A DNA stretch of 64,000 nucleotides from the NCBI GenBank assembly GCA_001972305.1, contig BDDD01001764.1, positions 257,626 through 321,625 on the forward strand, written 5' to 3'. Below, piece by piece: positions 17,970 through 61,347 of this stretch. The notes under the pieces are model-generated. The model was not told where the DNA came from and made no database searches. It saw only the letters and a program-made list of their open reading frames with translations. Made by a program: the position numbers and the translations under genes. Source of the stretch: Cephalotus follicularis. Its lineage: Eukaryota > Streptophyta > Magnoliopsida > Oxalidales > Cephalotaceae. Position 1 is the stretch's first letter. Each line of letters opens with the position of its first letter.

Positions 17970-17973
17970 TAAC

Positions 17974-24861: not shown

Positions 24862-25291
24862 TGAAATATCCCGATTCGTTGCCTATGTGTTTATCGTCAT
24901 AAGTTAGGTTTTTGTCCTATGCTCTATGTTATGTTTCATTGGACCATTTGAATTTGTTTTTTATAAACTCTTACCTTTTATATTCTGGGCATTGAGCGTC
25001 GATGGCTTTGTCATAAGCGTCGATGCCTTAGCGTTGTTATTTATCATTTTTCTTCCAGTAGTAAAAACGTCGCCGGTTTGTTTTGACATCGAAGCTTTTG
25101 TATGAAAAGGTTGAAGTGCCGACACTTTTTCCTGACCGTCAAGGCTTTAAACTATTTTCCATCTCTGTTCATGGTCGGTGCAACCTGTGGATTTGTTAGG
25201 AAGGTAGGATTCTTTTTATAATCCGGTTATCAGATTTCCTTTTGTGTTTTCCACGTTTTCTTCTCATAAGGTAAGTCTCTATCAACACGTT

Positions 25292-27543
25292 TGTCACACC
25301 CCGCTTGCATTAACAACATACAACATGGCAATTTAACAGATATCCAGCTTATACAGAGAACGATAAAATTTAAAACTTTTAAACAGACATCATCTTGCGG
25401 AAGCATTTATATATAAGCTGAAACAAGCGGAACCATGCGTCCCATACCGCATGATTCCCACAACATCTCCATAACAACATGTTAAAAAGCCCACAAGCGG
25501 AGCATGATCCAAAGTTGATACAACAACAATAGCAAAACATTAGTACATAAAACAAGGTACAACATGTTTGCTACACTGCTTAACAAAGCACTTAAGACAT
25601 AAAACTCCGCCACACCACTGTCCATCACAACCATGCTCGGCGACATCCCGATACGCAGCATCAATCTGCAACAGTAGGGGGTCAGCCTTTGTCCTCACTC
25701 GGCCAAAGTCATAAGAACAACACAATATCAATAAAACAAAGCATGAATGCAACATGATGCAGTACATACTTTATCTCGATGCATATATATAAATATAGAT
25801 ATGCATATGCCAAACACAATGTCACGGTATCACCGAAACCACGGTGTCACACTGTCACAATATCACAATGCACGGTCTCAATCAAGTCCAAAGGACTACA
25901 CAATACTCGGTTCACGGTTCACGGTACACGGTAGGTACGAAGAGCGTCACCAACTCCTGGCCCCAACGTCGTACATCCCGACATCGGCCCCACTCCGGAC
26001 GGCACGAAGCAGGTCACAATACAGTAAGTCACCCAGCCAACTCCTGGCCCCTAAGTCGACCAGACCACTAGTCATCGCTGGCATCTCCGCCACGCAACTA
26101 GTACGGCCACAATCAAAAACACAATCAGCAATCACAATAAAATTCAATCACAATCGCAATCATCTCGATGCTCAAAACAGTTTTCCAAGTAAATTTATAA
26201 AACAAAGATACTTGAAAACAAACTCATTTTCACGATGTCACGGTTCACGGTTCTCGATATCATAAAAATCAGTTCACGGTATTTTTGGAAGCCATTTTCA
26301 CGGTTCGAAAGTATATATTTGTCAAAACATATAATTTCGTATAAAGTAATGATTTTTCATTAAACTACAATGCACTTCCAAAAGTATGTTATAACAGTTC
26401 AAACTCAATATCCACAATACTCAAAACAGTTCATAAGGCTTCATGAAGCAAAACATCACAATACAAGATGCATACATGTGTTCACAGGCAAAACAGGCCC
26501 CAACAGTCGGCTACCCACCACTGGCAGTCGGCTGTTCCCCTCAAAATAGTCGGCTGCCAACCCCAGGCAGTCGGCTGTCTGCCAAGACAGTCGGCTGCTC
26601 ACACTCGACAGTCGGCTATCGTCCCTGACAGTCGGCTGTCCACACCCCCACAGTCGGCTGTCGACCTACGACAGTCGACTACACAACTCCTGCACACATT
26701 TTTAGGAAACGAAAGAGGGCAGTCGACTAGTCTCACCAGACAGTCGGCTGGACCCCCAGGCAGTCGACAGCCCACGGTAGGCAGTCGGCTGGATTCTGCA
26801 GCAGATGTAAAAACCAGCTGCTAAAACAGCCTCAATCACACACCCAACAAACCCCAAAATGACATATTTATGCACATACACGTTCCAAGCCCACAATATA
26901 ACATAAACATGCATTTTATTTCATCAAAGACATTTTAAATTGAAATTATGTTGCAAAAACGACTTCCCCTACCTTAGAACTCCAAGTTAGGAGTTGCAAT
27001 CCACCTCTTTAAGCTTAAATCAGAAGCCCTTGCAACCCCAACACGATCAGCCACCTTCAACAAGCCCGAAATCCCGCTGCCAAGCCTCCAAACTTCGGTT
27101 TACTTCACAAACACATCAAAGCTTCAACACACACACACACTTTCACTCTCAAACTCACAAGAAATCTCTTGGAAACACAAAGATGATGGAGAAAGAAGAG
27201 AGAAATGTGGTGTTTTATGGAGCAAACCCCCGGCCCCTCCTCTGCCAAAAGCAAATGAAGCCAAAATACCCCACCTTCCATCACTTAAAGCAGAAAACAC
27301 GTGGGCTATCTGGCGCATGGCAGTCGGCTGCCTCGCCTGGCAGTCGGCTGTTTCTGCCGACACTCCCACCAGTCGGCTGCCTCCTCACGGCAGTCGGCTG
27401 CCCCTGCACAAAAACACACAACAACACACTTTCTTGCAACATTTCAACACGGGAAAGAGGGTAAACACGATTCTCATTAACACATGGTGTAAAATTACAT
27501 TGGAAAGCAATATTACACATAAATGAAAATCCCGGGCGTTACA
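25292..27543 (-). mobile_element. Solo LTR, family F5, 2.25 kb
   Basis: The plus strand reads TGTCACACCCCG to GGGCGTTACA, flanked by perfect ACGTT (25287-25291 and 27544-27548). The other E4 LTR reads through at about 40640 without it. Comparison with other gypsy LTRs (start TGTAAC, end GTGTGACA) indicates the minus strand. No primer site or pol is present. The block near 26970-27200 resembles F2 LTRs (ACCTCTTTAAGCTT and flanks). It carries two arrays of CAGTCGGCTG. Overlapping ORFs there reflect the repeats and not a gene. Confidence 0.9.
26504..26791 (+). repeat. Phased array of 13 CAGTCGRCTG-type decamers
   Basis: Copies start at 26504, 26525, 26547, 26568, 26588, 26609, 26629, 26651, 26672, 26720, 26741, 26761 and 26782. 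Spacing is 20-22 bp with one gap of 48. Only the decamer is conserved and the 10-12 bp between copies vary. Variants CAGTCGACTR are palindromic or nearly so, while CAGTCGGCTG has one change. A second cluster is at 27321, 27341, 27370 and 27391. Confidence 0.96.
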
Positions 27544-29374
27544 ACGTTTTATCATTAAACTCACAATTTTCATCCTTTAAAAACAGTCACCGGCGCCATT
27601 TTTCAAACTAGCAAAAATAACCATTTTTTCTTACACCATTCTCATCGTATTTGCACATCATTTGAAGGTATGATTTTGCTATTGTTGTATATCATTATAC
27701 TATTGAATATAAGTCATTAGATTATTCAAAAATTTGTTGATAATCCATGAAATCTATCTTAAATAATACAATACCAGAAAACATGTTTTAAAGGTCGTTA
27801 TTGCTATATTTAACCCGTAAATTCATACTTGATGCGTTGAAATTGTCATAGATTTAGGTTTAAGAAAACTAGATTTCTGCAACTATTTTAACGTCCTGCT
27901 CGTATTAAAGGGTCAATTGTTTTCGTTTTCTGTTGACGCTTTATTGTGAGCGTCGACGCTTTTGTCATGAATTATCATGTTTTCTTCAGCGCTTTGTCCC
28001 GCGCTTTTGTCGACTTTGTTTTTAAACGTCAACGCTATGCATTAAGTGTCGACTCTTTTGTCCTGAACATTAACGCTTTCTTCTAGCAGTTTGTAATTAG
28101 CGTCTTTTATTTTTTTAATTCGAATCGGTTTGCATGATTAGGGTACCAAAACATCTGTGGTGAAGGTTAGGTTGATCCCCAGTCTACTTTTGTTTCATTC
28201 TTGTGATTGTTTGGGTTTGAACGGCTAAGGTGCGGATGATTCGTTCCTTGATACTCTTATTTATTTTATTTGAGTAAAAACATTATTTTATGAATAATGT
28301 ACTGACATTTCGTTTTGATTTTCATATTCTAATTTATATGAATAAAATACATACTTTACTACCATCATCTCTTTTAATTATTTATGGAATTAAATGGGTA
28401 TGATTTTCAATTATAAAAGTATGTGCACTTTTTATAGTGCAAATATGATAATGATTTCGGACCTGTTCGAAAACACCGTATATGTGTATATGTTTTGAAT
28501 TGGTTTTGGAATAAATCAATATTTTCAATTGATGACATACAGAGTTATACTTACCTATGGGGTCCCATAGGCATGTTCTTTGGCACTGACGACATGACAC
28601 CATCCATGGCGGTGTGATCAGTCTACGGCATCTCTACTGTTTTGATATCCCGTGAATAGGATTATGGATCCGATATATTGTCACCTGTCGGCCCTAGGAA
28701 AAATATGTTCTGTGTCGATATGAGAATTGATTGTCTAGTGCCGTACACGTCGTTCTGACCTGCATGTGGGTGTCGCGAATCCCTTGCTTATATTCATATA
28801 TATATATATATACATAGATGCTCTGTATGAAATTATATGAAGGTATGTAATATGAAATCAACTGAAATTATATGATTTGAAAAGGATGAAATTGTGTTAT
28901 ACGAATATTTTGTTTTACCTTATAAAAGAATATTAAGCCATGTTATGGACGTAATTTCTGATTTTAAAGTTCAGACACTATTCTATCTGTTAAATTAACG
29001 TTTATTATTTTATATTCTATATCCGTACTGAGGTTTGCTCAGTCGTGTTTTGTTTTCCATGCAGCAGGTTATCAGAAGCATTCAGGGAATGTGTGATTAG
29101 AGATGTCACGCTCATGTCAGAGGATCACTTAGGAGTTTGATCCTGTTAAGTGTATTATTGTTTTATTGTCACGTGTAGACCGTTGTCATTAAAAGTATTT
29201 TGATTTTGAAACTTATGTTAAGTATTATATGTGTGTTTTTCAGACTTTTGAACCACCACGTTATTTGAATAATGTTTTATTTATAGTTTGATACATAAAA
29301 TCTAGTTATGTTTTGATAAGTTTTGTAAGTATGTCCTGTGAACACTCCTAACCGTATAGGGGTGTTACAGATTA

Positions 29375-29386
29375 TGGAATCAGAGA
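29375..29386 (+). other. Primer binding site of E4, one base changed
   Basis: TGGAATCAGAGA against the expected TGGTATCAGAGA. The surrounding leader matches that of E5. Confidence 0.85.
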
Positions 29387-30641: not shown

Positions 30642-31853
30642 TGTTGACGTTTAAGTCTCAATCCTTGTTTTGATGATAACATATTTGCATCTAACTAAGT
30701 TACTTGATGTGCAAGGAATTACAAGTTGAATATCAAAGTCTAAAAACCAATCTGCAGAAAAAGAAGTCGACTCCTTTCCAAAAGCATCGACGTCTTTTGT
30801 ACAGAATTAACTGCAAAGAAAACATCTACCTCCCAGTATTGGCATCGACGTCCGTACCAAAAGAAGTCGACTACTTCCAGAAGACGTCGACTACATTCAA
30901 GAAGACATCGACTACTTTAGTGAACACATCGACGTGTTTAGACATTTTTGGGACCAGAAGCTACTGTATCAATTTGCACTCAAAGACATCGATCCTCAAC
31001 CAAAAGACATCGACGTCCAAGTAAAAGACATCGACGTCTTTATATAGAGATCGACGACATTTTCATCACACCCAGAAAAAGCATCGACACCAAGTAAAGA
31101 GCTAGATGCGACATTCAACCTGGAGTTTCCCAGAAAAAACATCGACGCCTTTCAAAAAGAAGTCGACGCCTTTTCAAATAGACAACACCCGGGAAAGCTG
31201 GAATGGCTAGTTCAACCACTTCCAACGGCTACCAAATAAAAGACATCGACGCCTTTAAAAAGGAGTCGACGCCTTTTCAAGAGAACAAGAACCGGGAAAG
31301 CTGGAATGGCTAGTTTAACCACCAATAACGGCTACCAACTAAAAGACATCGACGTCTTTGGTAAAGAAGTCGACGTCTTTGTTCCAGCAGAGATAAATTC
31401 AACAAATGCAACTCACATTCTTTAATCAAAAGCTTCCACAAATTAAGCAAAGGCTATAAACCTTTTCAGGCTATAAAAGGAAGCAAGAAACCTCAGAAGA
31501 TGTACAATCAAGAACTACTACAATTCAGAATCATCTACATCAATCACACAACAATCAAGAGAAATCCAATTCAAGCTATCTAGTGTGCCAAAAGCTCAAA
31601 GTGCTCCACATTGTTCAACTAAGCTTCTAAGCTTCTTTATTTGAGTGTATCTGAGTGTTTCTTACAGTGAGCTATATTTATTCACATCAACCTATTCAAG
31701 AGGTTATTGTAAACACTTTTCATATTACTTGTAAAAGAGGAGATTCCTCTAAGGCTTTGAGGTCAAAGTCTTGTGATTGAGGTCAATCACAAAATTGTGA
31801 GGTGTAACGATTTGCTGCCTTAATCAAATCAAGATAGTGGAAACTCAAGGAGC
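30642..31853 (+). repeat. 5' LTR of the SIRE-like element, end lost in the gap
   Basis: Aligns with 35475-36686. The last 165 bp or so and the primer site are missing at the N run. TATAAAAG at 31472-31479 is the likely TATA box. Dense ATCGACGTC / GTCGACGTC motifs lie at 30767-31373. Small ORFs across them are repeat artefacts. Confidence 0.92.
31472..31479 (+). promoter_or_regulatory. TATA box of the SIRE-like 5' LTR
   Basis: TATAAAAG downstream of the motif array. The same site is in the other LTR at 36305-36312. Transcription would start about 30 bp downstream. Confidence 0.6.
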
Positions 31854-31878
31854 NNNNNNNNNNNNNNNNNNNNNNNNN
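31854..31878. other. Assembly gap, 25 N
   Basis: A run of N interrupts the left LTR. The sequence after it does not continue the LTR, so the gap hides a junction of unknown size. Confidence 0.98.
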
Positions 31879-33300
31879 TATAATTACTTGATCAAAATAT
31901 ATTTGTTTAAAATATATATTTTTCCGTTTCACAAGTTGTAATAAGTTACGAAACTTAAAACAATACATTTTTCTATCTTTGGAAATACTTCCCCAATCAT
32001 TTCGAAAATATATATATGCATACATTTTCGCAAATCACATTTGGTTTCATAATTAAACCTTTAAAACATGTCATTGGAAATACTTCCCCATTTATCTCGA
32101 AAATACAAAATATATAATTTCAGATGTTGACCAACATGCTTTTTCGTGTACAAGTGATCAAAATGATCATGCAAGCTTTTCAAAATGGTTAACACTTTTA
32201 AGAAAGCATCCATAATTCAAATCACCGTAACAGTGCAAACATATGCTCAGAATGCATCTAGGTCCGTTCCTAAGGTCGTTTTAGGTCTAACGGGTCCTAT
32301 TCAAGCGAAATTCTACTGTCCAGGGGGAAAGACGTCGATGTCATTTCCAAAGGCGTCGATGTCTTTTAGCCTAAAGCGCCAGTTCTATGCACAAGTGTTC
32401 CCAGGCTTTTCTGAACCAAAGACGTCGATGTCTTCTAAAAAGACGTCGATGTCTTTTTCATACCAGAAAACATCAGTTACGAGTCTTGATTCAAGAGGCT
32501 AAAACTCAACCTTTTAATCCTTTATATAAACAGATCCCACTATATAAACGTGCAAGACATGCTACTGGTCGATAGTAACACAACCATAGCATCAATCCAA
32601 AACCAAACAGGAAATCCCAAGTGGCTATAATGGCCATCCAAAGTAAACATCACAGTTCAATGATTTCCCAGAAAAGGAGTCGACGTCTTCTACAAAGACG
32701 TCGATGTCTTTTCATCCCAGAACGGGGTTTTCACGCACAGATTCATGTAATCTTACATGCAAGATCAACATAGTGTATCACAGTGACACTACAACAAGTC
32801 CAGAATCTCAATTCAATCATTAACATGCAATCCACCATGCTAAACATTAACTTAGAACTTAAAAAGTACATATAAATTCATCACTTTCCCCTACCTTTGA
32901 TTTCAAGTTAGAAATCGAAAGTCCACCTCTTTTAGTACTCCACGTTCTGTCTACCAGCAGCTCCAAGATCCCTTAGCAACTGCTACACACGAGCTCAAAC
33001 CTTCAAGCTCCAAGCAACTCAACAATGGAGGAATACACACTGTCCAATTCTCTCTCTCACTTCTGGTGTTATAAACGAGAGAGAGAGGTGGGGACCGTTG
33101 TGTATTTCTAAAACACATAGACCTCTCCTCAAAATACGTCGACCCTTTTTAAAACGCACCGTTTTTATAGCCAAATTTTAAAATCACAACCACTCCTTTT
33201 CGAAATCACGTCGACCACTATCTCATCAGACACTCGACTTCTCCATAAAAAGTCGACTTTTCATCATTTCTAACTTTCCCTCTCTCTCCTGGTTTTCAAA
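31879..33300 (-). repeat. LTR fragment related to F2/F5 inside the SIRE-like element
   Basis: On plus, CCCCTACCTTTGATTTCAAG and the following ACCTCTT...CAGCAGCT...AAGCTCCAAGC block parallel 26970-27090 (F5) and 10335-10480 (inverted E1 LTR). The left end is in the gap and the right end is unclear, near 33300. Six GACGTCGATGTC-type motifs lie in three pairs spaced 21 bp (32335/32356, 32425/32446, 32680/32701). No gene is seen. Confidence 0.6.
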
Positions 33301-33481: not shown

Positions 33482-34747
33482 ATGCCAAGAACAAAGAAAG
33501 CCATTCGCAAAAAGAAGGCTGTCGACGCCCTCCCTTAGACGTCAAAGAAATTTCCAGTTGCTAAGAAGCAGAGATTAGAGGCTTCCTTACCGAATCAACC
33601 TGTGCATGCCCATGCATTCACGTGTGCCCTAGCTCACAAAGGAGTCGACGTCTTTCCAAAAGACGTCGATGTCTTTTGCCCAATACATTCCTCATCTACA
33701 CCCTTTATCATACACACTCAATTTTGTAGAAAACGGGTAATGGGAGGCAGAAATGTAGATTTTGATTTCTGTTCCTCCGAATTCTCGTTTGTTTCATGGT
33801 TGGATGACCTACATTTACTCCCTCTTGTCCAAATCTCTAACCCTTTTTATATAAAATTGGTTAAAGATTTTTACTCAAATCTCAAAATGGTTTCCGATCA
33901 AAACCAAGAATTCGCTGTCACATCTGTTGTTAAAGGTCAGCGTATGTATCTTGATGCTAGAATTCTAGCTTCAATTCTTCATATTCCACATACCGGCATT
34001 TATGTTTTCGAACATAAAAAATGGCCGGAGGTTGAGGGTTTTCACCCTAACCAAATTCTCTCCGTTTTGTATCCAAATGACCCTAACATCCATCCAAATA
34101 TGGCTTTGACAACCAATCGTCTGTCTGTTGATCATCGCCTCCTCCACCACCTCATCGTGCATCAAATTTTACCCACCGGTGGAGGGTACGCGAAATTGTC
34201 TAGAATGCAAGTGTTTATCATGTGGTGCATTATATCAAAGATCGAATTTTGTTTCCCTCTTTTGATTCTCAAGACTATGGTTCGAGCGTATTCCCAGAAG
34301 AAATCAGTCCTTCCTTATGGATCCCTTCTCACCCTTGTCTTCCTACACTATCACATTCCTCTTGATGGAGAGATTTCTACAAAATTGAAGAAGGAGGATA
34401 CGTACAATAAGAGTACGCTGAACAGAATGGGCTGGAAAAAGGAGCAAGGTATATGGACATATCACCCTAGAGCGGATCAAGCTCCTAGGCTTGCAAGGGA
34501 GGAGCAAGAGGACAACCCCCCTTGGGAACATGATGCCCCTGCACCAGCAGCCTCTGCCCCTGCACAGACAGCTCCCTCATCATCCACTGCTGATTACGAT
34601 CGCATGATGGAATTTATGGAAGCAAAATTTGCTGCCATGGAAGCCTCACTTAAAGAAGTCCACTCACGGCTTAATCGATTGGAAGGTGATCTTAGGACAT
34701 TCATAAGGACTCCCAACTCACTGATGACAACATCTTCTATGACTTAA
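33482..34747 (+). pseudogene. Putative plant transposon protein / envelope-like protein of the SIRE-like element
   Basis: The likely start is ATG 33482 (MPRTKKAIRKKKAVDALP), followed by a TAG at 33536. The frame then stays open from 33539 to 34747. The basic start resembles a nuclear localisation signal. The middle (about 33770-34480) has features I recognise from the 'putative plant transposon protein' family, often annotated as envelope-like in SIRE elements: DFYSNL, a hydrophobic stretch with VFIMWCIISK, LPYGSLLT, and a closing WTYHPR. A coiled coil follows (YDRMMEFMEAKFAAMEASLK). A frameshift near 34715 separates a further helical and acidic Ser/Glu-rich tail that reads to about 34872. 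Its function is unknown. Confidence 0.72.
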
Positions 34748-34872
34748 AGGTCACGAAGAGACGCTTAAAGAGGATGGAGAGAAAGATCGCTCAATCAAAG
34801 ACAATTGATCAAGTTGAAGAAACTTCGGGCGACGAATCCGGATCCGATTCTTCCACTCCTGCTGAGTCTTGA

Positions 34873-35474
34873 TGTTGTTTCTAACTTGTGTTGTTTTTGC
34901 TGTTTTTGATGTTATGAACCTTTTGAGTTCATTTTGTGATTTGGTTGTAATGAACAAAGTTTGTTTTTAATGATATTAATGAAATGTTTATCCAATTGTG
35001 TTTATGATTGTGTTTTATGAATTATGTTTACAATTATATGAATGAATTTGTGATTAAATTGCATTGAATGATTATGTCGTTTCAATTTTTTTCTCTCTTT
35101 GCCGATATTATTTTTTTTAACCCCTGCTATGATTTAGGGGGAGCTAATGTTTTTCTTCCCTTGTAGGATCTTTTTGATGATATACAAAAAAGGGGGAGAA
35201 TGGTATAGATGTTAAGCTCAAAGGAATTTATGTTAGAATTCATATTTGCGGAGAAAAATGAAAGTAATGCTAATTTATGCATTAAGGGGAGAATTGCATT
35301 GCAAATGGGAAATATGTTACTTATGCAGGCTCAATTCTTAACTTCTGCATTCTTATGCTTATTGCAACTTATTTACAATGCTTCATTTTGACATTCATTT
35401 ATAATTCCTTCAATTTCAATTGATATTACTCATCCTTTTGAGCAAATTTTTGTCATCATCAAAAAGGGGGAGAT
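34873..35474 (+). other. 3' untranslated part with two purine tracts
   Basis: Non-coding T-rich sequence. AAAAAAGGGGGAGAATGG near 35185-35202 and AAAAAGGGGGAGAT at 35461-35474 both follow TTTGATGAT or TCATCATC. The second abuts the LTR and is the active type. The first looks like a duplicated or central purine tract. Confidence 0.75.
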
Positions 35475-36851
35475 TGTTGACGTTTAAGTCTCAATCCTTG
35501 TTTTGATGATAACATATTTGCATCTAACTAAGTTACTTGATGTGCAAGGAATTACAAGTTGAATATCAAAGTCTAAAAACCAATCTGCAGAAAAAGAAGT
35601 TGACTCCTTTCCAAAAGCATCGACGTCTTTTGTACAGAATTAACTGCAAAGAAAACATCTACCTCCCAGTATTGGCATCGACGTCCGTACCAAAAGAAGT
35701 CGACTACTTCCAGAAGACGTCGACTACATTCAAGAAGACATCGACTACTTCAGTGAACACATCGACGCGTTTAGACATTTTTGGGACCAGAAGCTACTGT
35801 ATGAATTTGCACTCAAAGACATCGATCCTCAACCAAAAGACATCGATGTCCAAGTAAAAGACATCGACGTCTTTATATAGAGATCGACGACATTTTCATC
35901 ATACCCAGAAAAAGCATCGACACCAAGTAAAGAGATCGATGCGACATTCAACCTGGAGTTTCCCAGAAAAAACATCGACGCCTTTCAAAAAGAAGTCGAC
36001 GCCTTTTCAAATAGACAACACCCGGGAAAGCTGGAACGGCTAGTTCAACCACTTCCAACGGCTACCAAATAAAAGACATCGACGCCTTTAAAAAGAAGTC
36101 GACGCCTTTTCAAGAGAACAAGAATTGGGAAAGCTGGAACGGCTAGTTTAACCACCAATAACGGCTACCAACTAAAAGACATCGACGTCTTTGGTAAAGA
36201 AGTCGACGTCTTTGTTCCAGCAGAGATAAATTCAACAAATGCAACTCACATTCTTTAATCAAAAGCTTCCACAAATTAAGCAAAGGCTATAAACCTTTTC
36301 AGGCTATAAAAGGAAGCAAGAAACCTCAGAAGATGTACAATCAAGAACTACTACAATTCAGAATCATCTACATCAATCACACAACAATCAAGAGAAATCC
36401 AATTCAAGCTATCTAGTGTGCCAAAAGCTCAAAGTGCTCCACATTATTCAACTAAGCTTCTAAGCTTCTTTCTTTGAGTGTATCTGAGTGTTTCTTACTG
36501 TGAGCTATATTTATTCACATCAACCTATTCAAGAGGTTATTGTAAACACTTTTCATATTACTTATAAAAGAGGAGATTCCTCTAAGGCTTTGAGGTCAAA
36601 GTCTTGTGATTGAGGTCAATCACGAAATTGTGAGGTGTAACGATTTGCTGCCTTAATCAAATCGAGATAGTGGAAACTCAAGGAGCTCCCTTGGGAAAAG
36701 TGGATGTAGGCGAGAGTTAGCCGAACCACTCTAAATATCGGAGAAGTTTTTCTTTCCTTGTCTATTTACATTTAAAGTTTTTAAATTTCCGCATTTACTT
36801 CAATATTCAATTCACCACCCCTCTTGTATATTGCAAGAGTGTTTTATTTCA
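35475..36851 (+). repeat. 3' LTR of the SIRE-like element
   Basis: 1,377 bp, TGTTGACG to TTATTTCA. It carries the same TATA box (36305-36312) and the same phased motif array (about 35600-36210) as the left LTR. The two differ by about a dozen or slightly more bases over 1.2 kb, many of them C/T or A/G changes in the motifs. Confidence 0.95.
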
Positions 36852-43200: not shown

Positions 43201-46091
43201 CTCTGGATGCGGATGATCTCACTAGACTTCCTGTCCATTGTTTTACAAGCTTCGATAGGGACCAACAACTGTTACTGAACTATTACTGAATACTGTTACT
43301 GAAAACTGTTTTATAACTGTTTTGACGAATGTGGATCTTACATTGATCCTTTAGGTCCCTATCATTTCTACTGTTTACTGTTATTGTTACTAGGTGCGAC
43401 TATTGTATAAGTACTGTTATTAATCGTATTGTTTGAGACTGTACAGGATAACACATTCATAATCTTCATCCCCGTCATGAAGTATTATGGGTGTTTGGCC
43501 ACACATCACTGTCAATCCTACTTTTTTTGTGACCTACGGCAATCACCGCCTAGGGGATGGATCCAGTTACTGTTACTGATACAGTTATTGTTACTGAGAG
43601 CTCTATTGTTGCTGTTATATGCTAGTACCTTTCGGGTCTAGCAATATTGTTACTGGCTGGTACCCTTTGGGTCTAGCACTACTGTTACTGGCTAGTACCT
43701 TCGGGTCTGGCACTACTGTACAATTTTCGTGGCAAGTGTTATCCTATGCCCCACACGGCTATAACATGGGAGGGTTGTGTATAGTCGATGGGGGTACTAT
43801 CTCGGGCCAGAGTGGTAGAGAAGTACTTGACCTTGAAACTGTTTGTTCCCATGTATTGTTAGTGATTGTTTACTAAGTGTCTGCAGGCTTATGGCCTTGG
43901 ATGTGATTAGGACTAGCTAGATATACTCCGCTTAGGGACAGTTGGTATATCGAAGCTATCCACAATTGTACACTGATATACTGCACTGCACTATTACTAC
44001 CACTGTTACTGTACACTGTTACTGTTCATTGAGAACTGTACGGTACTGTTAGTGTATTTTTACTGTCACTGTACTGTACTGTCATAGTACTATTACATTG
44101 TCACACGCTGTATTGATGCATACATTGCATACTGTTATAACTGTTGCATACATAGCACATAATATACCCTACACGACATTATGTCACTGACCTATTTCCC
44201 CTGTGTGTGGAATGGGTTAGGCTCAGGCCCAGGTGATGGATCACAGCGAAATGGATCGATACTTAAGATGGATCTTGGATACTAGTTGTGTTGGGATTGT
44301 GTATTTATTGTATATGGTTTCGTTATGATTATGTTATGGATTTACTTATATGAATTGTATTAAATGAGACAGGCTGAGACGGATGGGTTCTCTATAGCAT
44401 ATTTTGAGTTGCCACATTGTATATGTTCTCACTTATGGTAATGGATATGGGTTTTTTATATGAGTTGTAAAAATGGCCTTGAGTTATAAATGAACTGTAT
44501 GGGTTTATATACCTTCATATGTATAAGAGACACTCAAAAGACATTATAGAGATATGTTTTATTCAGCTATCGACCTGCCGACATGTGGCAGTGGTTATGA
44601 TATATGTGTGTTGATGTATTAAACAGGGACATGCCCATCATTTGAGGCATTATAATGATATGATACTGGTTTAGTTGTGGTTCTGAGGACTGAGCCCATA
44701 TATATACATAACTGTTGATTCCTCCTTCGGGAGTGTGAGATATAAATTGTGTTTTTCTTTACAGGGGGTTTAGTCCAATAAACTAATACTTCATGCCGAA
44801 ATTTTGAGAGATTTTAAGAGTTAATTTTTATTCGATTTGATTATTCCGTTGATGTAATATGACATTGATTTAAAGTTTTATTCATGTTTAGCACTTTTGG
44901 TGTATGAATTTAATGATGAAATGACTGAATGGAAGGTATCTCACGCGTCGGATCGTGGGGGTTTACTCTCGCGGTTCGGGGTGTGACCATAACGTACTTA
45001 TCTTTCATTTTGATTTTCATATTCTGATTTATATGAATAAAATACATACTTTACTACGATCATGTCTTTTAATTATTTGTGGAATTAAATGAGTATGATT
45101 TTCAATTATAAAAGTATGTTGACTTTTTATAGTGCAAATATGATAATGATTTCGGACCTGTTTAGAAACACCGGATATATGTGTATATATTTTGAATTGG
45201 TTTTGGATAAAAATCAATATTTCGAATTAATGACATACAGAGTTAACCTACCTATGGGGTCCCATAGGCATGTTCTTTGGCACGGAGGACATGACACCAT
45301 CCGTGGCTGTGTGATCAGTCTACGGCATCTCTACCTTTTTGATATCCTGTAAATAGGATTATGGATTCGATATATGGTCACCTGTGTGTGATATTACCGA
45401 AAGAGGCGTATGGGTCATCCCTAGGAAAAATATGTTCTGTACTGATATGAGAATTGATTGTCTAGTGCCGTACACGTCATTCAGACCGGCATGTGGGCAT
45501 TTGCGAACCCCTTGCATATATATATATATATACACCGATGCTCTGTATGAAATTATATGAAGTTATATAATATGAAATCGTCTGAAATTATATGATTTGA
45601 GAAGGATGACATTTTTTTATACGAATATTCTGTTTTACCTTATAAAAGAATATTAAACCATGTTATGCATGTAATTTCTGATTTTAAAGTTCAGACACTT
45701 TTCTATCTTTCAAATTAACGTTTGTTGTTTTATATTCTATGTCCGTAGAGAGGTTTGCCCAGCTGTGTTTTGTTTTCCATATCGTTGGTTATCAGGAGCA
45801 TCTAGGGAATGTGTGATGAGAGATGTCACCCTTATGTTAGAGGATCACTTACGAGTTTGATCCTGTTAAGTTTATTATTGTTTTATGGTCATGTGTAGAC
45901 CGTTGTCATTGACAGTATTTTGATATTGAAGCTTATGTTAAGTATTATATGTGTGTGTTTTAGACTTTTGAACCACCACGTTATTTGAATAAAGTTTTTA
46001 TTTATACTTTTATACATAAAAGCTAGTTTATGTTTTGATAAGTTTTGTAAGTATGTCCTGTGAACACTCCTAACCGTATCGGGGTGTTATA
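40220..46091 (+). repeat. 3' LTR of E4 (family F4) with nested F1 solo LTR
   Basis: Colinear with the 5' LTR outside 41476-44988. It contains motif clusters at 40358-40510 and 41060-41260. It ends GGGTGTTATA (CA to TA) before TSD TTCTA. Confidence 0.92.
41476..44988 (+). mobile_element. Solo LTR, family F1, 3.5 kb
   Basis: TGTAAGCCCC to GGTGTGACC, flanked by ATAAC (41471-41475 and 44989-44993). The other E4 LTR reads through at about 28290. It shares the CTGCAGGCTTATGGCC block and the GGTATCTCACGCGTC end with the LTR at 1390-4498. No interior is left. Six GTCGAC-type motifs at 42808-42965 are spaced 29-32 bp. CTGTTACTGTTATTG-type simple sequence is frequent between 42650 and 44120. ORFs are chance. 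Confidence 0.9.
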
Positions 46092-47526: not shown

Positions 47527-50500
47527 TGTAACGTCCCCGACCCGAGCCCACTAATTGCTCAAAGCAAACTACAAGGATTGGTTGTCTTACGCGGGGTGAA
47601 CTGTTACATCCTTTAACACTCTTGTCTAAAGCTAATTTATATCATAAATCTCATACATTTCAACGTAATACATAGCCTTGAATACTAGATTTAAACATTC
47701 TCATCTTATCCAAAGATGTCATCAACCATAGCATTCTTATACATTTACACAGGATCATCACATAATACAGCGGAAGAACATTGTCTTATTACATGTCAAA
47801 GGCTATTATGCAAACACTATTGCATAGTACATTTCCTTCACAAAAACTCCTTCTTAAGAGCTCCCTCTAAAGCTCGCATTGTCCATTTAATTCCTTCTTG
47901 AAAACATCTTATTTGAAAACAAACATCAAAAGGAATGAGCTCAAAATAGCTCAGTAAGGTTTTCATTGTAAAACACATTTCATCATATCACTTTTCTAGT
48001 TAAACTCATAACTAGAACATTTCATAAAACATATCTCTTTTCTAGTCAAAATTTGTAACTAGAACATTTCATAAAAACATAACATAGAAGTCATTAAACC
48101 TTAATGAACCCTTTCACACCTCTTCACCGGGGCATTGTGCACTCCCCGATTACTATCCTTCTATCACATGGATGTCCGTGAGCAATCTTCGCTCCATCAA
48201 CATTAATCCATCTTGGATTCATTCCCCTTGGATCGCAATCCAAGGGTGGTTCATTCATCATCTCATAAAACATTTCCTTAATACTTTGAGTGATCGGCTC
48301 AAAGCATTCATAAACATCATTGTATAGCATTTCTTTCACAATTCATAAACATTTCTCTTCATTTGAGTAATTAACTCAAATGCTTTCATAAAACAGCTTT
48401 GCATAGCATTTCTAAAACTGAAAATTCATATAGAAATAAGCATTTTCTGAGGAAACTTAAAAGTGACTGGTTCCCTGTTTTAGCAGTACAGGAGCAGTAA
48501 AATGAAACATGACTTTTCATCAAGGATTCGACAGAATTTCAAATTTTACGAAACATAACAGTTAAAGTAGACATCTAAAAGTTTCTAAAACATTAAGCCA
48601 TTCGAAAATTCATCAAGAATTGAGCAAGATATGAATAAAACAATCCACTGTAAATTTAAATCAAAACAGGGGAAACTTTCATAAATATGGGTGTTGAATA
48701 TCCTTACGTTAATTTGAATTTCCTTTATTTCTTTCTCTTGTTGAATTCTCCACTTATTCCCATCAGAAAACTCTCCCTTTCCTAAGCCAAAATGGCTGAG
48801 CTCAGCCCTCAATTGCCCATAAATTGGATGATTACTTGGGGAACAAGCTTCTCCCTCTCTCCCATGAGTTATCACACATAGTTGTCCATGTGCCTCAAAT
48901 CCTCCAATGAAATTGTGACACTTGGCATCTAAACATAAAATATCTGGCTTCCTTAAACCCCGACATAACACTTGTCCCATATTTATTGATTTTAACTCAC
49001 AAAAGGATAAAATGTTAGACTTTGGTAACTATTCTGTACCTCAAAGCGTCGGTGCTTCACTTTCAAGCGTCGCCGCTTACGGGCTTGTTCTAAGTTCATC
49101 AACTCCCTCCTCAACTAAAGCACTGTAACACCCTCAATTCGGAACCGGGATCACTCCCGATTCAGGATCGGTGTGTCACACAAAACTGAACTAAAACATA
49201 TCAAGATCTTAATCTTAATCATCATCAATAGGTGGTGGTTCTAAAAATATGAAAACATGTTTAATCATAAAACATAAACTGAATCTGAAACATAATATGA
49301 AAACCGTCATAAATCAAAAATCACAATACTGTTTAGATAACTGGCCTATACACGACCATAACACTACTAAGAACATAACCAGATCAAACTCCTAGATGAT
49401 CCTCTGACATAGGGTAACTCTCTCATCACACTTGCCCATGCTATCCCTGAAAACCTGCCGCATGAAAAACAAAACGTGGCTGAGCAAACCTCAGTACAGA
49501 TATAGAATCATAAAACAGTTTACGAACAGTTTATGAAACAAATCAGTTACGAAACGACATAATTACGAAACAAAACAGATGCGAATCAAAACAGAACGGT
49601 TATAAAACAAAATAGAACAATTACGAATCATAACAGATCAGTTACGAATCATAACAGAACGAAACAAAACTTATCCGAAACAAAGCAGTTTACCAAAACC
49701 AAACGGTATCCGAAACAAAACAATATCATGCTCAATACAGTATCTGAAACAAACATGATGCGATACAAAACATTTCACGAAACGAAACACTCTACGAAAC
49801 AGAATAGAACAATTTACGAAACAAAAGAAAGCAGTTTCTGAACAGTACGAAACAAACAGATTATGGAACTAAACAAAACAGTAAACGATAAATGATAAGC
49901 AGTAAGATTTCAAAAGTTAACTCAAAACAGAAATCTTAAGCAATAAATTAGTTTAAACATTTCTTGAAATCACATATGAACTTTCATAAAAACCAAATCC
50001 ATAACTTTCAAAACGTATGTCAAACCTTTCAAAACATAATTTCCATACTGAGCCACATATCACATATCAGAACACATATGGCAAGGGAGTAGCTAATTCC
50101 ACATGCCCACTAGAATTGAAGTTTACGGCACTACACAGTCAATTCTCACATATCACATATCAGATCAACCATATGATCACATATTTGATCATTCACTAGA
50201 TCACATATCATAAACTAGAATCGATTCATACGCCTCTATCACATAACGGATCCATAAATCCACCTCATGGGATTTATTCGTACACTCAGAGACGTCGTAG
50301 TCTAATCACACCGCTATGGAAGTGTCACACGCCCGTGCCAGGCCCACGACGTGCCTATGGTACGCCCCATAGGTGGGTACAATACTCAGTATTCATTTAA
50401 AAAATATTGATTTATCACAATCAATTTAAAATCGCATAAAATATGCTTTCACAAAACATATCGAAAGCCGCTCACAACGGTATCGTAACATACATTTCAC

Positions 50501-52763
50501 AACATATCACATCATTTCATATCATATGTATAAAGTCGGAATCATTTAAAAATGTCAAACCAACTTTAAATTCAAGACGTATCAAAACCATAAAACATTA
50601 TCGATTTCATAAACGAAGAAGCTTATCAAAACTGTTTCAGTTCGAAATATCAGATAGCCAAGGAACAGAAAATCCGTACATATCCATTAGGCAATAAAAC
50701 GGGTTTTATTCAATCAAAAACTGATCGATGATAACCAAGAAATGGAATCCATAACAAATACAGAATCTGAAATTATCTCAAATAAAATCAGAAGGATATC
50801 AAAGAAAGAAGGACATCCGTACTTCATTTACTAGAACAAAACCGAATTTATCCCAACAATACCGAAGGACATATCAAGGAACGAAACATTCGTACAAAAA
50901 CATAACCGACTTTATTCAAATAAAATCAAACGGAGTATCCAAGAACAAAAGAATAATCCGTACATTAATCATAAAACCGAATTCATTTAAACAAAACAAC
51001 CAGAGAAATCCAAACCAAAGAGAATCCGTACAATAACGAAAGATAAAGCTGAAATTTATTCCTTTACAAACCAGTAGGAGGGTATCAAAGAAAGAGTTAT
51101 TCGTAACTCATGCGATCACCAAAACAACCTCAAGAATATGTATCGAGACTTCTCTAGACCGCTCATTGGTTGTTGCAAATATCTAACAGAAATAAAATCG
51201 TTCTCATAAGGACTTGAAATAAAATCAGACCTTGACTCATGGGTCATTATACACTGATCTTAACCATATAAGATAACAATAGGTTTAATACGTCCAATTC
51301 GCAGAAGTCTCATCTAAACACATTTTTGAATTCACTAAGGTAAGTCCAAGTTGTCCAATTCATCCAATTTCGAATCATAATACTATTTCAGCTCATAATA
51401 TCGTAAAACGATTACATAAATACATAATTCAACCGAAAACAGAATTTAACGGAGTAGGGTTCAGAGTTTAGCGAAAGCAGTCGAAACAGAGCACAAAGCC
51501 ATAATCGCATCGTGGAACTGGAACGGATCACACGTATGCGAAGTGCGGAGTCGGAAAACTGTCCAAAAAAATGCTGCCGGAGATAGCCGAGCGTGGGCTC
51601 ACGTGCCGCCGCCGGCCGGCACGTGTCTGTCACGCGTCACCAATTAGACACAAAAAAGGGCTGATCTGGAGCGTTGGAGGCCGAGGATCACATATCCAGG
51701 GCGCGTTTGCCACAAAGCCGTCGCGTTTGGCCAGAACAGATGCCTTTGAACACAGGTGGACTTTGCGCTAATCTACTTTTCCGGCGTGGCCAAGGGTCGG
51801 GGCTGGTCAGGTTCACTTCCTCTCGACGCCAGGATGCCGAATATGTGATTGTCTTTCCGTGCCGATCACCGGAGCGGGAGAATCAATGCCAAACAGATCC
51901 GGGAGAGAGAAGATGTTGCGCACGCCGGTGGAGACGTTGGCCGGTGCAGGGGTTGGGTCCGGTGGACTCAGTAGGTCATGGGGGTTCAACCGGTGCCGTT
52001 GCCGGTGCCATATCGGTGGCGTCGCCGGTGACAGCAGCTGAAGGAGAGAGAGAGAGGGTGGTCGGGAGAGAGAGAGAGAGAGAGAGTTTGGGAGAGAAAG
52101 TTTATTTCTTTTTTTTTTTTGTAAAAATAGGGTTTCTAACTTATTAAAAATGCTGAAAGGGTTTTAACAATTAAACAAAAAGACAAAAATTATTTTATTT
52201 ATTCATGGACTTAATATCAAAACCCACTAGGCTAAGGCCAAAACCTGCTTAGCCTAGCCAAAAGCAAAACAAATCGAAAAATGGGCAGTCCACAAACCGA
52301 AAAAAAATCGACAGCCCACACGAAACAAATCGAAAAGCCCGAAAAATCTACACGGAAAAACGGGATATTACAAGCACTGATGCTTCATTTTAAAGCATCG
52401 TCGCTTTATGGTCTCATCTAGGTCAACTAAAACACTTGACTTAAAAGCGTCAATGCTTACATTTAGGGCATCATCGATTGCACCAAGCGCTGCCGCTTTC
52501 ATTCAAGCGTCGTCGATTAGAGGAATTTGTCCAAATTGAACAATTACTTGTTTTAACTGTCGTCAAGAGGGCTCTAAGCATCGATGGTTACCTTCAAATC
52601 ATCGCCACTTTAAGTGAAACCGTTGACACTTTAAACATCTTCATCAACTCTTAACATTTGTGATCGACGCTTTGAACATGACGTTCATCCAAAACATATA
52701 GCAAACCTCAGTAATGGCAACCATATTTCCATATAACTTTAACAAAATTTCCCAGTCATTACA
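47527..52763 (-). repeat. 3' LTR of E2 (family F6) with nested F3 solo LTR
   Basis: On minus it starts TGTAATGACTGGG at 52763 and ends GGGACGTTACA at 47527. Without the insertion it is about 1.98 kb. The block at 48120-48160 is the exact reverse complement of part of the solo LTR at 56135-56175, which ties both to one family. Decayed AAGCGTCGACGCTT-type motifs lie at 49049 and 49070 and at 52376-52680. Two minus ORFs near 48.1-49.0 kb have no recognisable domain. Confidence 0.88.
49124..52372 (-). mobile_element. Solo LTR, family F3, 3.25 kb
   Basis: The plus strand runs TGTAACACCCTC to CGGGATATTACA, flanked by perfect AGCAC (49119-49123 and 52373-52377). It matches both E5 LTRs, including the GATCGGTGTGTCACAC end and a GA run near 52066-52087. 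It has no interior. A 157-aa plus ORF at 51674-52147 overlaps the GC-rich part and is antisense. I do not regard it as a gene. Confidence 0.94.
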
Positions 52764-54627: not shown

Positions 54628-54874
54628 ACGCATGTAAGGACCCAAATTTCCATGTAAGATATTAATTATGGAAAATGTTTGCTATTGTGTAAATTGGCAA
54701 GTAGTTCAAGGGACCCATAGTATGAACCTACGCTCGGGGTGTTCGGGGGCTCCGCTCCCCGGTAAGCAGACGGGGGGTCCCGCTGCCCGGTCAGCGGGCA
54801 GGGGTTCGGGGGGCAGCGCCGCCGAAAGAAAATTTTATTTGGCTAAGTGATGAGAAGAAAAATGGTCTTAAGCG

Positions 54875-55200
54875 CCGACAGTTGTACTTAAAGCGTCGAC
54901 GCTCGGGTAGTAACAGTCGACGCTTAGACCCCTTCTATCTGCGCTTTAAACCAGTGCAAAGGTAAATTGGATAAAGCCCTCACACAGTCGACGCTTAGGG
55001 ATAAAGAGTCGACGCTTCGGTCAACGATCGACGCTCTAAATGTAAAAGTCGACGCTTTGAAGTCAAGTGTGTTAGTTTACTTGGACAAAGACTTAAAAGC
55101 GGTGACGCTTTGTAAGAAAGCGTCAGCGCTTTAGTCGGGATAGAGGTAAAAAACTAAGGTGAAGCCCGTGATTGTCGATGCTTAAAGAGAAAACGTCGAC
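54875..55200 (+). repeat. Phased array of GTCGAC-core motifs in the F6 LTR
   Basis: TCGA or the equivalent core starts at 54875, 54896, 54917, 54988, 55009, 55028, 55049, about 55103, 55123, 55175 and 55196. Within runs the spacing is 19-21 bp. The best copies read AAAGCGTCGACGCT and AAACGTCGACGCTTT, which are palindromic. Confidence 0.93.
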
Positions 55201-55299
55201 GCTTTGAGTCATTTTTTGACGTTTTGTGCGCCACGAGCAACGAACAGATGCGGTAAAAATAGGCAGAAAACAACAAAAATGGAGGCGGCGTTTTTTACC

Positions 55300-55307
55300 T
55301 ATAAATA
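55300..55307 (+). promoter_or_regulatory. TATA box of the F6 LTR
   Basis: TATAAATA just after the motif array and before a GAGAGAGAG-rich leader. Likely the U3 core promoter, with the start about 30 bp on. Confidence 0.6.
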
Positions 55308-56767
55308 GCAGTAAAATTGACAGGGAGATCAGTAGAAAACAATTGAGAGAGAGTGTTTACTGAGAGAAGGAAGAGAGAAAGAGAAAGAAGAGAAGGAAGA
55401 GAGAAAGAGAGAAACAAGGGAAGAGGAGAAAAGAGAATTTTGTTGGGATTTCAGCATAGTAAGTTCTTCAGTATGGAGAAAAGAGAGAAGGAGATAAAGC
55501 AAGGTAAGGATCCCTAGTCTTCTTTTAAAAGTACTTTATATTAGTAAGGATTTCTGGCCACTTTGTCAATATATTTTATGTTAGTATTTTATGTAAGGAA
55601 TTTCAACGCACTCTCCTAAAGTATATTTTTTGTTTATATTCAACTCAATTTAATTTAACTTTCCCATCGACATGATCGGTACATCCGTCTGACTGAGTGG
55701 AGGAAGTTAATTTTAATTTAATATTTCAATTAAGCAATTTTTATGCTCGATATTTAAATAACTTTTTTTTATATATCTTTTATAATTATTACGTTCCTGT
55801 ATTTTAAATTTCTACCAATATTCATGGTAAATGTCTATATTAAATTTATGTAAATTCTTAAATTCTATGTTGAATTGTTGCCAATTTCTTAACGAAATTA
55901 TATATTACCATTTTAAAATATTCCCATTTGAAATATGAATTCTAGAAAATGTTGTACAAAATTATTTATGAATGCTTTAAGCTGATCACTCAACGTATCA
56001 AGAAATGATTATTTTTACGAAATGAGAAAAGGCAACAAACTGAGATGAACAACGACTGCATTGCGATCCAGGGTCGATTAATCTAGTAAAAGATTAATGT
56101 TAAAGAGTGGAGAGTGCTCTCGGACATGCATGTGATGTAAGGATAGTAATCGGGGAGTGCACAATGCCCCGGTGAAGCAATAGTTCAACAGGGTCAATTA
56201 ATTTTATAAACTCCTCAGTATTTATAAAATATTCGGATTCATGAGATATGATCAGAAAAGAAATGAATGAATGTGAAATGTACTGGTTTTATAAAAAATA
56301 CTAGAAAATGGATTTGAATAATGTTTTATTTCTATAGTTCTTACTGAGCTATTTTGGTGCTCACTCCTTTCAATGTTTTTGTTTTCAACTAAAATTTTCC
56401 AGAAAAAGATTGAACGAGGAAAGTCGAGCTTTGGCAGGAGCTCATAAGTGATAATTTCGAGAAGAAATTATGTTACGAAATATAGTTTTGTGTAATAGTT
56501 TATGACATTATAAACTAATGTTTTCCGCTGTATAATGCCTTTTGATAGATCCTGTGGAGATGTAAGATGTTGACTATAATTGTTATGATGTATGATTATT
56601 TAAATAAGAGTATAAAATTTTAAGGTTTAGTATATCAAGTTATTTATAGATATTAGCAATTAGTAGGATTGTTAAAGGATAATAGGTTTCACCACCATGT
56701 AACGCACCGACTCCCCGAAGTTCGCTTTGAGCATAAAGTAGACTCGGATCTAGGGTGTTACAATGCA

Positions 56768-58633: not shown

Positions 58634-61347
58634 TGTAATAACCGCAATTTCAATCCATGTATATTGTGACCTTGCCGAATAAAATGTGCATTTGCTTGAA
58701 TTTAATGTCCAATTATTATATGGATTGTGGTTGTTAATTTAATTGAGCAAATGGACCTAAAATAACCAAAAGCAACCTTCGACAACCGGCTGCCACAGGG
58801 GAACAGTCGACTGGCTGATGTGTAGTGTGACAGTCGACTGCCTGTTAAAGACAGTTGACTGGAATGGTACAGAACATGTGTCTATCCTTGCATATGAGAC
58901 AGGGAAGAGGCAAGGCCTGATGGACAAGTGTTATGCGAAGCCAGCAGCTGCCATCACATGCAAAAGGAGTGCCTTGCATGTACTCTGCAGACCTGCAACC
59001 TGCAATCACAACTGAGTAGTGAGAAAAAGATAGAAAGAATGAGAGAGGAGTGAACATGTGAGAGAGAGAAAAGAGAAGGCTGAGTTAATGGGAATCTGGC
59101 GAATTCTAAGGCTCCTAAGCCTTTATATCAGTTGTTAGATTAGAGTGTGAGTGTTAGAAAACACTGGGGATAGAGGGGAGCTTGCTGGAGAATTGTTTGA
59201 GATTGCATGTTGAAGGATTAGAGCTCAAAGAAGGAATTGAAGCTTTGATTCCTGGTAAGTTTCCAATTTGGGATTATGGTTGCGGTTGTAGGCTAATAGT
59301 CGTACATACGGTTTACATGTATACTATCCATGATGTCAATTTTAGAAACGGTAATGGAAGGGTTCGAAAATGTGAATGTGAAGCTTAGGGGATTGTTGAT
59401 AACTCTAAATTCGAATTATAGTTGTTGTTATGATTGTCAAAAGGTATATGTATACTCCATTATATAATTATACATCTTCTATCCACACGTTAAGGTCAAT
59501 GAATGTGGAATTAAAATAGATTCGGCAAAGGTTCATAGAGATGTTGTAAAAAGAAAATTTTGAGGCTTAATGAACTATTGATGAACTACTCTTGGAGTAG
59601 TAATTCGTAACTGGATAATTAGTTAAACCTACTAGTTTAATGACTGAACCTTCAAGCATGCATTGTATAGATCATTTCTACTGAGATTGGATGGCTAAGT
59701 TGGTGAAAGAGTCTTGGAAACTTAAAGGGAGAGATCAATCCAAATTGATCTCGGGATATCGTTTAAGGTAGGGGTAATGACATTTTTTGGAAGATATATT
59801 ATGCGTATCATGTATGGTTAATTTCTGTTTGATTGCATGTGTAGTTAAGTTAGTAATTGGACATTGAAATACATAACCTGTTACTGCCTTCATTTTCTGG
59901 GCAAAGCAGTCGACTGTTCTTCATGGCAGTCGACTACTCAATTTATCCAGTCGACTGTTAAGAACAAATAGTCGACTACTCAATCAAAACAGCCGACTGT
60001 TCTTGAGAACAGCCGACTATCCTAGGTTAAAATTCTGATATAGGTCCTGTTTGGGCCTCAATTTAAATGTAAATAACTTGGCCTCCATTTGGATGATTAG
60101 AACAGTCAATCCTGGCCTTATATACAATTACATTTCAGAAACTAAACAAGTATGCACTCCTTGTGAGAGTTGCACATGAATGACTATGGTATACTAGTTA
60201 CCTTACTAGATTCCTCGAATTACTTGTTCACTTCTATTGTGCTGTATATGCTACTGTTATAATTAGTATATACTAGTGAGTGTTCATAAACACTATTGTT
60301 TCCATATTTCAAGGATTAAACCAAACTAAGTGCGATAAGCACCGATATGGATTTTAACTAATGGTTTCAAAATGGAAACTTATTGCCAATGATTTACTCC
60401 TCCTCCTATGAGAGGTACCTACCGTTTTGTTCTCCGACTGGGAACCACTATTGTATTGATATCGTTTTCCTCCTATGAGATGTACGATCAATGAATTGTT
60501 ATATGTTTCTAAAGAAAACAATTTATATTGCATACTATTGATATATGTAATATTACTATTTAATTGATTGAATTGCTTGTCTATGTTATTGCCGTTAGTC
60601 GAGTGATAGGAGACATCACTGGCTACGAAGGTGGTCCTATGTGCCAGGAGTTGGCTAGAGTATCTACCCATACTGTCTGAAATGTAGATCCTGATTGTTA
60701 AACTGCCCGCTAATGCTGGTAGTAACTGACCTGATCTATCATCTCCGGAGTGAAGGGTGATAGATAGGTGGTGCATAGTTGGTGCTAGGAGTTAGCGACA
60801 TGTGACACCCAAACCACTGTACTGATTGTTTGTACCATTCTGCGGTATTCTTGAATTGTATTGTCTATGGCCACTTGGTATGATTTCTTATGTATTGGAA
60901 TACTTATAAATATATTTTCAATATAAAATGTCATACATGTTGCATTCATATATTCCTTAACATGCATTATCTTCCTACTTAGCCAAGTGAGGACAACGGC
61001 TAACCCCCTACAATTTCAGATTAAGCAAGGACGTTCGGAGAGTGCTGCAGAAGCTTGGAGAGCTTCGATTCTTCTTAAGGTTGTTATTTTATGATGATGT
61101 ACTGTATTTGTATTGAATGGTTCACACACCGTGTTATTGTTGTACTATCCTTATGTAAAAGGATTATTGTCGGATTGTACATGCACGTAGTATGGGCTGC
61201 GTACGAATGACTTTTATTTTGTAATCCAGATATGAATGCTTCCGCTTATATTATTTGAATTGTTGAATGAGAATGCTGGATTATATTTATTTCTGATATC
61301 ACCATATATGCTTGTCTTTTAATGGAACTGAAAGGCGGGGTGTGACA
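58634..61347 (+). repeat. 5' LTR of E3 (family F2)
   Basis: TGTAATAACCGCAATTTCAA to GGTGTGACA, 2,714 bp. The last 1.1 kb parallels 6900-8109 of E1 (for example the GCCAGGAGTTGGCTAGAG block). The middle differs: in place of GTCGACGCC motifs it carries CAGTCGACTG arrays at 58783-58861 and 59907-60019. ORFs inside are chance. Confidence 0.92.
59907..60019 (+). repeat. Phased array of six CAGTCGACTG-type decamers
   Basis: Starts at 59907, 59927, 59948, 59969, 59990 and 60010, with spacings 20, 21, 21, 21 and 20 bp. A second cluster is at 58783, 58804, 58831 and 58852. The perfect palindrome CAGTCGACTG occurs at 59907, 59948, 58804 and 58831. Confidence 0.96.

Follow-up and report, generated by a model that had tools for sequence, protein, structure and literature searches.

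Phased arrays of palindromic GTCGAC boxes in Ty1/copia and Ty3/gypsy long terminal repeats of Cephalotus follicularis

The closest known kind of sequence to the GTCGAC box arrays that we describe here, from long terminal repeat (LTR) retrotransposons of Cephalotus follicularis, is the RM box of Sirevirus LTRs (Bousios et al. 2010). RM boxes are palindromic, occur in many copies (at least eight) in the upper LTR half before the TATA box, are embedded in diverged surroundings and mark CpG island borders (PMC2829016). That study reports them as Sirevirus-specific and absent from the other Ty1/copia elements included, with a CGG-CCG core in 12/13; a term search of its text returned nothing on RM spacing or phase. 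Palindrome clusters in maize Sirevirus LTRs (Bousios et al. 2016) have been proposed as small interfering RNA hotspots, as described in PMC5311732 and PMC10760457. Further afield, the targets of VANC proteins (Hosaka et al. 2017) are described as dense short motifs in non-coding parts; related targets keep a core and differ outside it, the units of one array change together and a target class can sit in an unrelated element (PMC5735166). Our arrays were identified in a stretch of 64,000 nucleotides, hereafter the window (contig BDDD01001764.1, positions 257,626-321,625, assembly GCA_001972305.1; genome 1.58 Gb), which is made up of nested LTR retrotransposons stacked in each other.

The Cephalotus arrays resemble RM boxes in layout, with many palindromic copies clustered in the upper part of the LTR amid diverged sequence. 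The Vitis RM CGGTCGACCG, as given in the text of PMC2829016, contains GTCGAC; the AGGGGGAG-AT/TG junction marks the window LTR that begins at 35475 as belonging to a Sirevirus; and the array at 35599-36213 is palindromic, has at least eight copies and lies shortly upstream of the TATA box CTATAAAAGG at 36304, a combination that is true of this one LTR. However, the Cephalotus boxes lack the CGG-CCG core, reading instead GACRTCGACGTC, GCGTCGACGC or CAGTCGRCTG, and the same box class is present in a Ty3/gypsy LTR rather than being restricted to Sireviruses; these two differences set them apart as a variant, not a member, of the RM boxes. Together with their helical spacing, these are the features that appear to be new. 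Our literature searches (titles and the beginnings of abstracts) returned no report of helically phased or gypsy-shared boxes. The maize clusters are likewise palindromes in an LTR regulatory region with strong predicted folding, but the motif given for them is CACCGGAC...GTCCGGTG. VANC targets are the nearest functional parallel; the Cephalotus motifs are also dense, short and non-coding and change together within an array. In contrast, VANC motifs are described as having one orientation (the strings 'palindrom' and 'spacing' are absent from the text of PMC5735166), VANDALs are Mu-like DNA transposons and the VANC motif binder is element-coded.

The window holds 59 exact copies of GTCGAC, where 6.9 would be expected from dinucleotides (50 Markov simulations: mean 6.86, maximum 15); no other palindromic hexamer of the window is as over-represented (8.55-fold). 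GTCGAC was again the top over-represented palindrome in a comparison sample of 190,093 bases from 20 other genome places (nineteen 10-kb pieces and a single 93-base piece, hand-picked sequence-blind), with 105 copies versus 19.4 expected. Allowing up to one mismatch in the core, 33 core pairs of the window lie 21 bp apart and 22 lie 20 bp apart (simulation means 0.26 and 0.46, respectively), with additional peaks at 40-42 and 61-63 bp. Across the 254 kb formed by the window plus the 10-kb pieces, there are 35 arrays, approximately one per 7 kb, which hold 102/164 exact cores. A search of the whole genome for the exact triple (three cores at 20 or 21 bp steps, overlapping triples counted) returned 29,033 matches, versus 110 for the reversed-pattern control CAGCTG; triple arrays also matched 101 stretches in IMG/VR. 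The window pair counts, the comparison sample and the triple search thus confirm, genome-wide, the GTCGAC arrays at 20-22 bp that a first-pass annotation had reported. That annotation placed its arrays between 24999 and 60019, where many indeed lie, but others were found outside this range, at 5679-5783, 6502-6612 and 10065-10195. Among its family labels (F1, F2, F4, F5 and F6), F1 could be matched to 42807-42964, but not every label could be mapped to an element. The 29-32 bp spacing that it attributed to F1 is visible at this position (gaps of 31, 62, 29 and 30 bp), but single distances of 29-32 bp do not stand out in the window-only spacing spectrum and represent a minor mode.

The phasing of the boxes was assessed in two sets of gaps: a discovery set, for which the gap intervals were chosen on its own data, and a second set (L001, L003 and L126-L140, taken for their 20-21 bp triples, plus six blind-picked pieces, L141-L146), for which the odd-turn intervals were preset. 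Gaps between all pairs of boxes cluster near 21, 30, 42, 50, 63, 71, 83-84 and 91-93 bp, and the best gap period is 10.25-10.35 bp in both sets. In the sampled loci, gaps of two, four and six helical turns are in excess, as are gaps of approximately three and five turns. The odd-turn intervals (28-32, 48-52, 69-73 and 89-93 bp; neighbour gaps only, duplicates removed) hold 53/90 neighbour gaps in the discovery set, versus 30 expected, and 21/31 in the second set, versus 10.3 expected. When all 64 palindromic hexamers were treated by the same rule, GTCGAC ranked first in two-turn gaps (101) and had the highest two-turn ratio (7.17; the next, GCCGGC, reached 7.09 from 13 gaps). Its odd-turn share (61/103 = 0.592) was the highest among the 40 hexamers with at least 40 gaps, the other 39 averaging 0.337 and reaching 0.442 at most. 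The proposed helical phasing is therefore borne out in both gap sets and in the comparison with the 63 remaining palindromic hexamers, and both anticipated spacing peaks, at approximately 21 and 29-31 bp, are present in the sampled loci. Gaps of three and five turns are not derivable from a repeated 21-bp unit, suggesting that slippage is not an easy source of the arrays.

Each box is a dyad of approximately 12-16 bp, and three main classes were distinguished (CAGTCGRCTG, AAGCGTCGACGCTT and AAAGACRTCGACGTCTTT). Over 147 non-redundant sites, the five positions next to the core on each side are all more symmetric than in shuffles. When arrays are collapsed into 16 similarity groups, symmetry is kept at positions 1, 3 and 4 (11, 15 and 14 of 16 versus 7.7, 9.5 and 9.4), but no excess was detected at positions 2 and 5, so the symmetric flanks described by the first-pass annotation hold in part at family level. 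Within phased arrays, the outer letters of the core often vary, while loss of the central CG is rare: it is lost in 25/256 boxes in a phased context and in 320/713 outside. The second most over-represented palindrome of the window is GACGTC (28 versus 6.9), an excess that probably comes from its presence within GAC-class boxes; this hexamer equals the bZIP C-box.

The boxes are shared by LTRs of the Ty1/copia and Ty3/gypsy lineages. The window features on which this comparison draws are the following:

30642-31853, plus strand: Ty1/copia Sirevirus 5′ LTR, cut by an assembly gap, with boxes at 30766-31374 of class AAAGACRTCGACGTCTTT
35465-35476, plus strand: Sirevirus polypurine tract and attachment site AGGGGGAG-AT/TG (signature as in PMC2829016)
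35599-36213, plus strand: box array of the Sirevirus 3′ LTR, many boxes being imperfect palindromes
25292-27543, minus strand: solo LTR, TG...CA, 2252 bp, box class CAGTCGRCTG
26506-26789, minus strand: inner box array within the solo LTR, comprising 15 or 16 sites depending on the rule, mostly at 20-22 bp steps
27323-27398, minus strand: outer box array within the solo LTR, located 145-220 bp from the LTR 5′ end

The Sirevirus junction at 35465 identifies the LTR of that element as Ty1/copia. The sampled locus L005 has a complete 2.33-kb LTR on its minus strand (TGTAACGCCC...GGGGTGTGACA); after it come TGGTATCAGAGC, a gag of the Ty3 capsid type and a protease of the RVP_2 family, which identify the element as Ty3/gypsy. 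Arrays of the AAAGACRTCGACGTCTTT class are present in both LTRs, and an identical 17-mer, AAGACATCGACGTCTTT, occurs in the Sirevirus LTRs at 31025, 31343, 35858 and 36176 and once in the L005 LTR, bearing out the earlier claim that unrelated gypsy and copia LTRs carry the boxes. With E values up to 1 allowed, BLAST comparison of L005:2201-6500 with the Sirevirus 3′ LTR revealed matches only in the arrays or within approximately 55 bp of them; one match of 44 bp, at 91 %, covers two boxes together with the spacer between them. Such confinement of similarity makes it unlikely that all arrays trace to one copied segment, although short arrays may have been transferred between elements.

Further loci extend this picture. 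The start of the L005 LTR is found again in L139, its boxes lying at the same offsets, and at L020 a gypsy polyprotein frame (SH3_Tf2-1; chromodomain match under the curated cut-off) ends at 2924, with an LTR start at 2974 that has GC-class boxes. The solo LTR of the window is nested in an LTR of another family, where a clean target duplication of 5 bp (ACGTT) flanks it (25287-27548), and is related to the L005 LTR (63 % over 572 bp, plus similar 5′ ends). Outer and inner arrays lie at matching places in these two LTRs, with CAG-class boxes in one LTR and GAC-class boxes in the other, suggesting that the class can switch as a whole while the layout stays. A second LTR that looks Sirevirus-type by its 5′ end, in L021 (1574-2480), has drifted cores such as GGCGAC and CGCCAG at the same 21-bp step.

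Arrays tend to lie in the upstream part of LTRs. Among LTR-start-like sequences in the window and the unselected pieces, 7/18 have phased boxes 120-420 bp downstream, versus 7.8 % of random places (5/14 when the window is excluded), and the first box in those seven lies 133 to 267 bp inside the LTR. A looser LTR-start scan was uninformative (26/91, random 0.37), its control having included loci picked for arrays. Several LTRs (the solo LTR, the LTR X described below and the L005 LTR) have a second, deeper array, which by eye seems to come after a GTAAG- or GTAGG-type splice donor. The final exact core ends 97 bp ahead of CTATAAAAGG in the Sirevirus 3′ LTR and 99 bp ahead of the TATA box in the LTR at 54633.

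Taken together, these arrays are probably cis-regulatory arrays for the cooperative binding of a dimeric nuclear protein. Each dyad box would hold one dimer of a nuclear DNA-binding protein; the whole-turn spacing would put neighbouring dimers on the same face of the DNA, favouring cooperative binding; the bound protein would activate or de-repress the LTR promoter; and this promoter benefit would lead unrelated elements to retain, multiply and re-tune their boxes. We infer these steps from the symmetry of the boxes, which suggests a dimer, from their helical phase, which suggests a single face of the helix, from the placement of arrays in the upstream LTR part, which suggests promoter control, and from the sharing between lineages, which suggests that the boxes benefit an element. 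To our knowledge, no plant factor with this site has been described. The putative binder more likely comes from the host, as a single factor or a small group of related ones; an element-coded factor is the bolder variant.

A number of results weigh against this proposal. Binomial p-values for the gaps assume independence, which is broken by related families, and are therefore too small. The odd-turn excess is carried by the three- and five-turn intervals; the seven- and nine-turn intervals alone are not significant in neighbour gaps (2 of 4 and 2 of 4 in the second set). Strict TATA boxes, scanned for blind in the neighbourhood of arrays, were not in excess (2/35 versus 1.65 at random), leaving TATA association unsupported as a general rule. 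There is also no sign of post-insertion selection, as the core differs more than the rest in 4/4 comparisons from three LTR pairs: LTR X in two parts (7/36 and 7/49 versus 45/336 and 62/615), the pair 5479-6768/9890-11179 (20/103 versus 104/1008) and the young Sirevirus pair, in which the excess is trivial (2/102 versus 15/938). Such decay of the core in dead copies is what would be expected of methylated CpG, and selection, if any, acts on active elements. Finally, in 170 neighbour pairs complementarity within a box was no better than between neighbouring boxes, suggesting that symmetry belongs to the class carried by an array and not to single sites. This comparison, intended to tell a DNA from an RNA function, did not separate the two, and we rejected site-by-site flank compensation as evidence of a DNA over an RNA function.

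The same equality is consistent with a role in RNA structure, in which neighbouring boxes in LTR transcripts would pair into hairpins that feed Dicer, so that the arrays are small-RNA hotspots and the 21-bp step mirrors a processing size. The maize Sirevirus palindromes provide a precedent (PMC5311732, PMC10760457), and the two arrays that we folded gave z = -8.1 for 35590-36220 (20 shuffles) and z = -5.6 for 59895-60030 (200 shuffles). Strong folding is, however, expected of any palindrome array, and inverted repeats would suffice without every box being self-palindromic. This explanation, which we consider unlikely, also offers no obvious cause for the odd-turn gaps (28-32 and 48-52 bp) or the 10.3-bp period. 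The odd-turn gaps equally count against descent with slippage, in which a functionless array arose once, spread by transposition and by template switching to other LTRs, and grew by slippage of a 21-bp unit. The arrays do lie in high-copy LTRs, a comparison of 38 arrays placed 27 in 5 similarity groups (11 stand alone) and the 44-bp match between the Sirevirus and L005 LTRs takes in two boxes and their spacer; yet these LTRs have no similarity away from the arrays, flank classes differ at corresponding positions of related LTRs and the central CG is retained in arrays despite the fast decay of cores in dead copies, rendering such an origin distinctly unlikely.

It is very improbable that the arrays are a chromatin signal, with phased CpG boxes positioning nucleosomes rotationally or cueing methylation or demethylation without a dedicated dimeric binder. 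Every exact box contains a CpG, the central CG is kept and a 10.3-bp period is also compatible with nucleosomal DNA. Rotational positioning, however, relies on short A/T and G/C dinucleotide patterns and not on one 12-16 bp word, and the distinct symmetric flank classes demand base-specific reading. Binding by a dimeric nuclear protein is thus the explanation that we prefer.

The remaining features of the window that bear on the arrays and their elements are listed below:

24862-29369, plus strand: LTR X, 5′ copy, TGAAATATCCCG...GGGGTGTTACA, Ty3/gypsy-type by its LTR ends only, ends approximate, split by the solo LTR
24998-25123 and 27932-28053, plus strand: boxes of the LTR X 5′ copy, class AAGCGTCGACGCTT, partly decayed
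32334-33257, minus strand: more boxes of the AAAGACRTCGACGTCTTT class, part of the stretch resembling an inverted gypsy LTR; not counted as Sirevirus
33482-34869, plus strand: Transposase_32-related (PF20167) reading frame between the assembly gap and the Sirevirus 3′ LTR
40220-46091, plus strand: LTR X, 3′ copy, ends approximate, interrupted at approximately 41476-44988, with boxes at 40357-40538 and 41069-41252
42807-42964, plus strand: five exact boxes at the gaps given above, inside the nested LTR-like insertion at approximately 41476-44988
54633-55308, plus strand: LTR start TGTAAGGACCC, boxes at 54874-55200 (mostly GC class) and CTATAAATAG at 55299
58806-58859, plus strand: box array of class CAGTCGACTG, an outer LTR cluster by eye
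59909-60017, plus strand: box array of six sites at 20-21 bp steps, class CAGTCGACTG/CAGCCGACTG

The stretch at 32334-33257 was considered as a pre-envelope box cluster of the Sirevirus, a feature known from published work, but this was dropped on account of its resemblance by BLAST to a gypsy LTR in inverted orientation (the L005 LTR, 65 % identity over 234 bp). Box-free LTR families also occur in the window: a long LTR-like repeat pair of approximately 3 kb (12273-16131 and 17973-21048, with 1.8 kb between), related to 49122-52372, contains no exact GTCGAC array. No box is located within 150 bp of the nested insertions at 25292 and 41476; LTR elements are reported to weakly prefer palindromes as insertion sites (PMC6911290). 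Rfam and tRNA scans of the window returned no matches.

An assembly gap of 25 N (31854-31878) lies directly inside the Sirevirus 5′ LTR. The region between the Sirevirus LTRs has probably been collapsed in the assembly, and the gag-pol part may therefore be missing from it. The PF20167 frame that lies beyond the gap raises the bolder variant of our proposal. In this copy the frame, at 33482-34869, is not intact: it contains an in-frame stop close to its start, and the reading frame shifts near 34700. Frame 33539-34747 returned 384 protein matches (E up to 0.001), and the 120 matches listed are all from Cephalotus follicularis (77-98 % identity). An intact relative, P0001, has 12 K/R in its first 40 residues, a Transposase_32 domain at 82-266 and a strong heptad pattern at approximately 339-386; judged by these residues, it looks nuclear and coiled-coil and not envelope-like, and we speculate that the heptad stretch would dimerise the predicted binder. 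At L021, a frame encoding a diverged relative (25 % identity over 215 columns; PF20167 E 1.2e-7, under the curated cut-off) lies approximately 0.9 kb from the second Sirevirus-like junction, and an Athila element of sunflower likewise codes for a protein of the PF20167 type, for which a nuclear signal is predicted (PMC11728184). VANC-type systems code for a DUF1985/DUF287 protein that binds the motif and removes methylation; a scan of 26 reading frames and one homologous protein returned no match to DUF1985 or DUF287. It is conceivable, though decidedly doubtful, that the Transposase_32 protein binds the phased boxes of its own LTRs as a transcription or anti-silencing factor, that gypsy families evolved boxes to exploit it and that the flank classes track protein variants. 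If true, this would constitute a VANC-like system in LTR retrotransposons with freeloading gypsy families.

The helical phase would separate a DNA-binding array from a small-RNA source for Sirevirus palindromes, which were described in 2010, and the 29,033 exact-triple matches provide a handle for finding the binding protein. If our interpretation is correct, many LTR families of one plant would answer to one DNA site class, and unrelated parasites would have converged on, or would share, one control protein, making a case for regulatory convergence among mobile elements.

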